Shown one piece after another: positions 32,429 to 35,064 of a stretch of DNA of 64,000 nucleotides. A program made the translations under genes and the position numbers. The number at the start of each line of letters is the position of its first letter. Within the stretch, counting starts at the first letter, position 1. Under the pieces are notes generated by a model that worked only from the letters and a program-made list of their open reading frames with translations, did no database searches and was not told the origin of the DNA. The stretch is from NCBI GenBank assembly GCA_903832735.1, contig CAILCO010000084.1, forward strand, positions 1 through 64,000, written 5' to 3'. The DNA comes from an uncultured Sterolibacterium sp. GTDB taxonomy: Bacteria > Pseudomonadota > Gammaproteobacteria > Burkholderiales > Rhodocyclaceae.

Positions 32429-33178
32429 ATGAACATCCGCATGACCGTCTTGACAGCCCTCGCAGGACTGCTGCTCGTGCCGGCGGGGTACGCCGCCGAG
32501 ATCACCGTTCTCAGTGCCGGCGCGATCGAACCGGGCCTGAAGGCCGCCGTGACGGCCTATCAGAAGGCAAGCGGCGACGCCGTGAAGATCAGCTTCGCAA
32601 CGGCGCCGCAGATCCAGAAACGCCTCGAAGGCAGCGAAACCTGGGATGTGCTGATCGCACCGCCGGCCATTCTGGAAGGCTACGCCAAGAGCGGGAAGGT
32701 CGGCGCGGAAAGCGTCGCCCTGGGTCGGGTCGGGATGGGCGTCGCGGTGCGCCCGGGTGCGGACCTACCCGACATATCGAGCGCCGAGGCACTGAAGCGC
32801 GCTATCCTGAACGCGGAATCGATCGTCTTCAACCGCGCCTCGACCGGCCTGTATTTCGAAAAAGTGCTGAAGCAGATGGGCATATCCGCAGAGGTCGAGG
32901 GCAAGACCACGCGCTACGCAGACGGCGCCGCGGTGATGGAGCACGTGCTGAAAGGCCATGGCCGCGAGATCGGCTTCGGCCCGATCACCGAGATCCTGCT
33001 GCAGCGCGAAAAGGGCCTGCGCCTGGTCGGCCCCTTTCCGGCGGAAGTGCAGAACTACACGGCCTACTCGGCCAGCCTTATGAGCAGCGCGGCGCAAAGA
33101 GCTGCGGCGCGCAATCTCGTGGAATATCTCGGCAGCCCGGCCGGCAAGGCGATTTTCGTCGCGGCCGGCGTCGAGTAA
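32429..33178 (+). CDS. ModA-like periplasmic substrate-binding protein (first copy)
   Basis: The 249-residue protein has a signal peptide (about 1-22, ending GYAAE). It then follows the type II periplasmic binding fold of the molybdate-binding family: ITVLSAGAIEPGL, a SFATAPQIQKRLE anion-pocket region, and FNRASTGLYFEKVL. AGGGAG lies upstream. No modB or modC permease genes are nearby, so it is either an orphan receptor or works with a distant ABC transporter. A molybdenum enzyme is encoded 4 kb away, which may be relevant. Ligand identity cannot be read from sequence. Confidence 0.8.
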   Translation: MNIRMTVLTALAGLLLVPAGYAAEITVLSAGAIEPGLKAAVTAYQKASGDAVKISFATAPQIQKRLEGSETWDVLIAPPAILEGYAKSGKVGAESVALGRVGMGVAVRPGADLPDISSAEALKRAILNAESIVFNRASTGLYFEKVLKQMGISAEVEGKTTRYADGAAVMEHVLKGHGREIGFGPITEILLQREKGLRLVGPFPAEVQNYTAYSASLMSSAAQRAAARNLVEYLGSPAGKAIFVAAGVE

Positions 33179-33275
33179 GCATGGCGAAAGTGGTCATGAA
33201 ACGGCGATTGACACTCGGAGACACGCCGGGCATATTGCCGGCGGTCACAGTCAAATTCCAAACGGGGAGAACACG

Positions 33276-34037
33276 ATGAAAATGAGTTCACTCGCGCTAC
33301 TCACGAGCGCCGGCTTTGCACTATCGCTAGCGCTGTGCGGCGGAGTACAGGCGGCCGAAATCAGGGTCCTGAGTTCCAACGGCGTGAAGACCGTGCTGGA
33401 GGAACTCGCCCCGCAATTCGAGAAGGCGACGCGGCACAAGTTGCTGCTCAACTTCGCCCCGGCCGCGGAACTGAAAGCGCAGATCGAGAAGGGCGAAGCA
33501 TTCGACCTGACCATCCTCACCGCCGCGGGAATCGACGACCTGATCAAGCAGGGCAAACTGGTCGCGGCGACGCGCAGCGACTTCACCCGCTCGGGTGCCG
33601 GCGTGGCGATCAAAAAAGGCGCGGCCAAACCCGACCTAAGTTCGGCGGAGGGTTTCAAGCGCACGCTGCTGGCGGCGAAATCGATCGCCTATGTCGGCCA
33701 GGGCGCAACCGGCGTCACGATAAACCGGATCATCGAGCGCTTCGGCATCGCCGCTGAGATGAAGGCGAAGACCATACCCCTGTCCGGAATTTCCGCCGCG
33801 GATGCGGTGGCCATGGGCGAGGCCGAACTCGGCTTCACCCAGATCAGCGAAATCCTGCCGGTCGCGGGCGCCGAACTCGCCGGCCCGCTGCCGCCGGAGG
33901 TCCAGGTCTATACCGTGTTCACGGCCGCGGTCGGCGGCAACGCCCGTGATTCGGCGGTGGCCATAAGCCTGATCAAATTCCTCACCGCGCCGGCCGCAGC
34001 CCCGGTGATCAGGGCAAAGGGCATGGAACCCGGTTAA
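33276..34037 (+). CDS. ModA-like periplasmic substrate-binding protein (second copy)
   Basis: The 253-residue protein has a signal peptide (about 1-26, VQAAE) and the same fold and length as the previous gene, with parallel segments IRVLSSNGVKTVLEEL, LNFAPAAELKAQIEKGE and YVGQGATGVTINRIIERFG. The two copies are clearly diverged and look like an old tandem duplication. GGGGAG precedes the start. No permease gene follows; the next 586 bases hold no full gene. It may bind a different oxyanion or small organic anion than the first copy. Confidence 0.8.
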   Translation: MKMSSLALLTSAGFALSLALCGGVQAAEIRVLSSNGVKTVLEELAPQFEKATRHKLLLNFAPAAELKAQIEKGEAFDLTILTAAGIDDLIKQGKLVAATRSDFTRSGAGVAIKKGAAKPDLSSAEGFKRTLLAAKSIAYVGQGATGVTINRIIERFGIAAEMKAKTIPLSGISAADAVAMGEAELGFTQISEILPVAGAELAGPLPPEVQVYTVFTAAVGGNARDSAVAISLIKFLTAPAAAPVIRAKGMEPG

Positions 34038-34041
34038 CCCG

Positions 34042-34088
34042 CATGGCTCCTGAACCACCCCACATGACGGTATGGCTGGGCGTCGGGG
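34042..34088. repeat. Dispersed intergenic repeat, copy A
   Basis: CATGGCTCC, GAACCACCCC, CATGA, ATGGC and GGGCGTCG occur here in the same order and nearly the same spacing as at 61,793-61,838. The blocks are identical and only short joints differ. Both copies lie in non-coding DNA, this one just after the second ModA-like gene. It is probably a member of a genome-wide intergenic repeat family. Confidence 0.6.
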
Positions 34089-34246
34089 CCAGGCCATGGT
34101 CATCGAAAACCGTGCCAGCCGGTTCGCCCACGGCCTTCGGCAAACTGATCGCCGGAGGAACCGCGATATGGGCCTTGCTTATCAATCGGTCCGGCGCCCG
34201 TTCGAAATAGGGCGAGAAGTACCTTGTTGCCCCCCGAAGAATCCCG

Positions 34247-34275
34247 TTGCATGGGAAATATTCCCATTGTAGAAT
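34247..34275 (+). promoter_or_regulatory. Sigma-70 promoter with an inverted repeat in the spacer
   Basis: TTGCAT (34247-34252), an exact 17-bp spacer and TAGAAT (34270-34275) form a strong promoter facing right. The sequence ATGGGAA-ATA-TTCCCAT (34251-34267) is a perfect 7-bp inverted repeat overlapping the -35 and filling most of the spacer. This is an ideal operator position for a repressor or a MerR-like activator. Transcription should begin near 34282. Confidence 0.7.
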
Positions 34276-34281
34276 GAAACC

Positions 34282-34421
34282 GGCGGATGTCTGAAAAAGA
34301 GATCCTGAAGCTGAGGCTCATTCCAATTCCTTGCAGGAAAGGGATTTCGGCTTCTGACGCGATTTCGATAGTGCGGTGCCGCAGGGGCCTGAACAGACTC
34401 CGGGTTCCTGCGGTTTTTTTT
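34282..34421 (+). ncRNA. Candidate structured small RNA
   Basis: About 140 nt run from the predicted start after a strong promoter to an intrinsic terminator, with no same-strand gene downstream. The middle folds well: GAAGCTGA (34307-34314) pairs with TCGGCTTC (34347-34354, one G-U), then ATTCC (34320-34324) with GGGAT (34341-34345), then TTCCT (34327-34331) with AGGAA (34335-34339) around the loop TGC. The terminator hairpin follows. A short ORF at 34287 (MSEKEIL...) lacks a ribosome binding site and runs through the terminator, so coding is unlikely. I do not recognise the family; it does not match 6S or tmRNA. It could be an Hfq-dependent regulator, hfq being in this window. Confidence 0.6.
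34379..34421 (+). terminator. Intrinsic terminator of the candidate small RNA
   Basis: CCGCAGG (34379-34385) pairs with CCTGCGG (34407-34413), immediately followed by eight T. The 21-base loop can pair further inside. It is one of the two clearest rho-independent terminators in the window and it points to the plus strand, where no protein gene ends. Confidence 0.85.
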
Positions 34422-34431
34422 CGACAGCGTC

Positions 34432-34578
34432 CTAGCTCTCCTGCTGCAGAGCGTCGAACTCCGCCGGCGGCAACGGGCGGCCGAACAGATAGCCCGGAAA
34501 GGCCTGGCAACCGCTTGCTGCAAGAACATCGCGCTGCGCTTCGCTCTCCATTCCCTCGGCGATGACCGCAGGCCGGTA
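34432..34578 (-). pseudogene. C-terminal remnant of an EAL-domain protein
   Basis: Read on the minus strand, this stretch ends with [19 protein letters not shown], then [18 protein letters not shown] and a TAG stop at 34434-34432. That is the last conserved block of cyclic-di-GMP phosphodiesterase EAL domains (AEGVET ... GYLFG.P). The reading loses similarity a few codons upstream and meets DUF2147 at 34,624, so about 45 codons are left and the catalytic EAL motif itself is gone. It is a decayed gene, probably cut by a deletion. The ORF track does not show it because it has no start codon. Confidence 0.75.
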
Positions 34579-34623: not shown

Positions 34624-35064
34624 TCAATCGGACATCCTTCGCCAGCGTTGTGTCCGGCCGAACAGCGGCACGCCGATATAGCCGCGCACATCCAGGGTCT
34701 TGCTGTCGCGCAATTCCAGCTTGCTCTGATAGGTCTTGCCGTTCTCCGGATCGAGGATCTCGCCTTCCCATCTGTCTCTGCCTGCATCCCTGACCTCGAG
34801 AACCTGCAGTCCCAGTATCGCCTGTCCATGAAGTTTACCGTTGCATGCCGTGCACAGCGGCGGCGCCATCCCGGGCGGCAAATACAGCTCCACAATCCTC
34901 CCGGTCAGGAGATTGCCCACTCGCCGGATTTCGATCACCGAACTGGGCAGGCCATCGTCATCGTCAAGCTGCAACCAGCGGCCGGAAATTCCGCCGGCGC
35001 CGATATCGGCAAAGGCAAGACAGGAGATCCACAGGGCCAGCAGAAACAGCCCGCTTCTCATCAT
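34624..35064 (-). CDS. DUF2147 family secreted protein
   Basis: This 146-residue protein has a signal peptide (about 1-20), then a lipocalin-like DUF2147 beta-domain with GRWLQLDDD near residue 28 and a CTAC pair (about 70-73). Family function is unknown; members are found in the periplasm. It follows soxA by 10 nt on the same strand and seems to be the last gene of the molybdenum hydroxylase-sox run. The start may be either of two adjacent ATGs. Confidence 0.75.
   Translation of the reverse strand: MMRSGLFLLALWISCLAFADIGAGGISGRWLQLDDDDGLPSSVIEIRRVGNLLTGRIVELYLPPGMAPPLCTACNGKLHGQAILGLQVLEVRDAGRDRWEGEILDPENGKTYQSKLELRDSKTLDVRGYIGVPLFGRTQRWRRMSD

Follow-up and report, generated by a model that had tools for sequence, protein, structure and literature searches.

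A probable operon-terminator remnant between two decayed genes in an uncultured Sterolibacterium genome

This study addressed the question of whether a short intergenic block in an uncultured Sterolibacterium sp., a betaproteobacterium, encodes an independent small RNA or is a remnant of the genes around it. The block (34211-34431, 221 bp) lies in a window of 64,000 nucleotides, the whole stretch analysed here, which has a G+C content of 63% and belongs to a genome of 4.33 Mb in 176 contigs. The original prediction described a structured small RNA under a palindromic promoter. The features considered are collected in Table 1.

Table 1. Position and character of the features in and around the block.
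Feature	Position	Strand	Remarks
SBP_bac_11 (molybdate-binding-like) solute-binding protein gene	33276..34037	+	intact, same strand, upstream; Pfam PF13531, E 1e-34
3' stub of tctC-type (tripartite tricarboxylate transporter receptor-like) gene	34109..34210	+	own stop codon kept
Hairpin lacking a T tail, immediately behind the tctC stop	34210..34232	+	fold of 34205-34240, z -3.8
Promoter-like site TTGCAT-17-TAGAAT	34247..34275	+	8/12 consensus matches
Perfect inverted repeat ATGGGAA-ATA-TTCCCAT	34251..34267		no other exact genomic copy
Candidate transcript, ~140-145 nt	34280..34423	+	conditional on promoter use; start inferred from the -10
Intrinsic terminator	34378..34423	+	14-pair stem (34378-34414), 9-nt loop, eight T
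3' stub of EAL-domain (c-di-GMP phosphodiesterase type) gene	34432..34572	-	5' side truncated; Pfam EAL, E 3.4e-5
DUF2147 gene	34624..35064	-	next intact gene to the right; Pfam PF09917, E 4.7e-24

The block lies exactly between two 3' stubs, that of a gene which we take from its protein to be tctC-type on the + strand and that of an EAL-domain gene on the - strand; it is thus a convergent spacer, bordered on each side by the native 3' end of a gene that has otherwise decayed. The tctC stub matched the tctC-type protein of the congener locus L028 (55% over 31 aa, E 2e-8, tblastn with a short subject) and its DNA (72% over 90 bp, blastn). In L028, a full tctC-type gene directly follows the orthologous solute-binding-protein gene, and the stub, by this comparison, sits in its ancestral place behind the corresponding gene, whose ortholog in congener G004 is 77% identical. 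The EAL stub consists of the last 46 codons and covers positions 206-236 of the 236 in the Pfam EAL profile; its frame is broken upstream, and its stop codon (34432-34434) abuts the T tail of the terminator. About 25 matches to its C-terminus were found in the same genome, mostly in long open frames, as is also the case for its relatives in the genus. The original description of the surroundings was right in that no + strand gene lies downstream of the terminator, but it left the preceding + strand genes unweighed and missed the truncation of both immediate neighbours.

Concerning the upstream genes themselves, a second solute-binding-protein gene, likewise assigned to Pfam PF13531, lies at 32429-33178 on the + strand, so that 32429-34037 holds a tandem pair of SBP_bac_11 (molybdate-binding-like) proteins, of which several further paralogues occur elsewhere in the same genome. 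The stretch 34043-34210 (+) represents an internally deleted tctC-type gene beside an intact SBP_bac_11 gene, the complete pair being present in L028; GQAMVIENR at ~34088-34115, noticed by eye only, may be a leftover of the tctC N-terminal part.

The terminator is real. It has the stable, GC-rich hairpin with an immediately adjoining U run that defines intrinsic (Rho-independent) terminators. Its folding energy of -25.1 kcal/mol (z -4.69) was equalled in 0 of 200 shuffles, and it is the strongest of the 7 hairpin-plus-T6 sites in the window; the predicted terminator with eight T is thus confirmed far beyond chance. It faces + strand transcription from the left, where the same-strand genes lie, and its position therefore suits it to stop the operon on that side; up to 34414, no second + strand terminator of similar strength was found. 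A terminated + strand RNA end at the block is credible. The earlier reasoning had excluded a leader, but it overlooked the possible service of this terminator to the upstream same-strand genes, namely the two solute-binding-protein genes and the tctC stub. Two observations count against the operon-terminator reading. One is the distance of ~340 nt between the terminator and the last intact + strand stop codon. The other is that, in L028, another + strand gene follows within ~26 nt of the tctC-type gene and no terminator is found there, so the terminator is not the ancestral end of that operon and the block is absent from L028.

The promoter had been described as a near-ideal sigma-70 promoter. 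The two hexamers are present where predicted with the exact 17-bp spacing; however, the -35-like TTGCAT (34247-34252) matches only 3/6 consensus bases and the -10-like TAGAAT (34270-34275) 5/6, and the site was unlisted by a standard promoter scan. The window holds nine promoter-like sites scoring at least 9. Among local dinucleotide shuffles of 34210-34377, 15% held at least one equally good + strand site at 15-19 bp spacing, and 4% held one as good at exactly 17 bp (P 0.04). These data suggest a mediocre promoter whose resemblance to consensus is near chance level. A possible - strand promoter at 34295-34266 (TTCAGA-18-TACAAT or CAGACA-16-TACAAT), which would produce a transcript antisense to the solute-binding-protein genes, scores higher at 9/12 than the + strand site; nevertheless, a quarter of local shuffles hold a site of at least 8/12 on either strand and no - strand gene lies before 32207, which leaves this alternative very improbable.

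The inverted repeat is perfect, as originally predicted, but two of its bases overlap the -35, so it is not wholly contained in the promoter spacer. As RNA, the region (34247-34272) folds into a hairpin of 11 pairs and a single bulge. The window contains 9 perfect inverted repeats of 7 bp with a loop of 3, and the chance of such a repeat inside the promoter 29-mer is P ~0.005 by local shuffles, for a post hoc pick; this low value marks the repeat as locally unusual and counts against the convergent-remnant reading. No second exact copy was found in the genome or in four congeners, and the exact palindrome together with the -10 was not found in viral contigs. The best other genomic site has 2 mismatches with broken symmetry, and the recurrence before other genes that marks the operator of a shared regulon was not seen in the genome. 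Strict control by a regulator, which the repeat had suggested, is not borne out for a putative operator present in a single copy.

The stem GAAGCUGA/UCGGCUUC in the candidate transcript is present as predicted. The body without the terminator (34282-34379) gave z -1.12, with 28 of 200 shuffles folding as well, and the whole candidate RNA gave z about -2.5 to -3.0. As the body alone is at chance level, it is the terminator that makes the whole fold significant; a significant stacked three-part hairpin is not confirmed, and a structured body beyond the terminator was not found. As seen here, one strong terminator can give an entire region the appearance of structure.

Upstream of this body, at 34210-34275 on the + strand, two hairpins without T tails stand right behind the stop of the tctC stub, and both are more stable than expected by chance (z -3.8 and -2.6). 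These hairpins, with the same-strand genes before them, would fit a 3'UTR-type RNA, in which the mRNA of the solute-binding-protein operon would have its 3' end protected by the hairpins and the terminator, its tail perhaps being released by an RNase. We consider this improbable, as the tctC gene is itself broken and the region is not conserved.

The original prediction also held that the ~140 nt code for nothing convincing, and our data agree, as no conserved reading frame was found. A short protein gene from the ATG at 34287 (MSEKEILKLRL...) has an open frame starting a few nt past the possible transcript start. However, this frame runs through the terminator and has no Pfam match. Its strong matches in 200 family genomes reflect EAL genes read in antisense (residues ~46-92), and the few weak matches touching residues 1-45 have E 1e-5 or worse. 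Such a gene can practically be dismissed.

Searches for relatives of the block gave consistently negative results. The proposed check against known families returned no Rfam match (best 15.5 bits against a gathering threshold of 50), and no paralogue was found in the same genome. No DNA homologue was detected in four congeners, nor among sampled genomes of the family (399), the order (399) and the class (369), where only short matches appeared at near the number expected by chance, and phages and plasmids gave no match beyond chance. In the spacers that follow the EAL relatives within the genus, no similarity to the block exceeded 14 bp. The proposed examination of compensatory changes in relatives therefore found no homologue to align, and conservation with such changes, which would mark a small RNA, was not seen. 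No account of small RNAs in Sterolibacterium was found in the literature searched.

Several apparent matches were rejected. A covariance model built from the single sequence of the block and searched in 151 family genomes gave three weak hits, two at E ~0.001 and a third at E 0.04; the two best lie inside coding frames of unrelated genes, which we take from their proteins to be PolX-like and N-acetylglutamate-synthase-like. A match of ~34 bp common to G319, G182 and G283, all of one other genus, was rejected as chance; in the one genome where it was checked (L110), it lies without extension inside a gene presumed from its protein to encode a DmsC-like membrane subunit. A mobile element was likewise rejected, as there are no repeats around the block.

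Taken together, an independently promoted, structured and tightly regulated small RNA is not supported, because the promoter is mediocre, the body folds at chance level, the operator is single-copy and no homologue allows a compensatory-change test. Since promoter and fold are near chance and no searchable related genome carries the block, leftover DNA of an ordinary kind is the likeliest account, with a young candidate RNA as the best case. Our preferred reading is that the block is probably what remains of a convergent intergenic region and carries the terminator of an operon. It would be an old spacer in which a + strand operon of solute-binding-protein and tctC-type genes met a - strand EAL-domain gene; the two genes next to it have decayed to their 3' stubs. 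The solute-binding-protein operon transcript would read through to the one-directional terminator, which is the only clearly real signal of the block and would stop + strand transcription arriving from upstream; promoter-like site, palindrome and hairpin would represent AT-richer spacer DNA whose likeness to a promoter and to a folded RNA is near chance.

A possible but less likely alternative is a trans-acting small RNA of ~140 nt, young and lineage-restricted, that runs from the palindromic promoter to the terminator. It may be bound by Hfq via its U tail, and a repressor on ATGGGAAATATTCCCAT would block polymerase. The 17-bp-spaced hexamers with the dyad between them, the strong terminator ~140 nt on, and the intergenic position with no conserved frame are consistent with it, and rearrangement-born cases are on record, PMC11101190 citing one from Salmonella. 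Against it stand a promoter of only 8/12, the chance-level body, the lack of homologues in the searched genomes and the lack of a second exact operator in the genome. Lack of conservation is, however, no proof of absence, because some small RNAs evolve rapidly, as stated in PMC8557413, and the genomes compared were congeners or more distant. The more specific version, in which a regulatory RNA restricted to the species arose recently in the spacer of two decaying genes and a dedicated repressor acts on a palindromic operator within its promoter, appears quite unlikely.

An operon terminator among decayed genes is nothing unusual; a truly transcribed small RNA would be one more lineage-specific RNA, chiefly an example of such RNAs arising beside decaying genes. 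In comparison with known systems, the block shares with small RNAs that are sigma-70-driven and Rho-independently terminated an intergenic position and the layout of promoter, ~140 nt and terminator; it differs in its weak promoter, its body without significant structure and its lack of conservation, being a candidate from sequence alone. With rearrangement-born small RNAs, such as the case given as reference 52 in PMC11101190, it shares a candidate RNA beside truncated genes that is absent from relatives, although the present block is known only as DNA sequence. With an ordinary intrinsic terminator in a convergent spacer, it shares the strong GC stem and U run, the convergent genes and the position behind a group of same-strand genes, the differences being that both adjoining genes are stubs here and that the terminator is one-directional.
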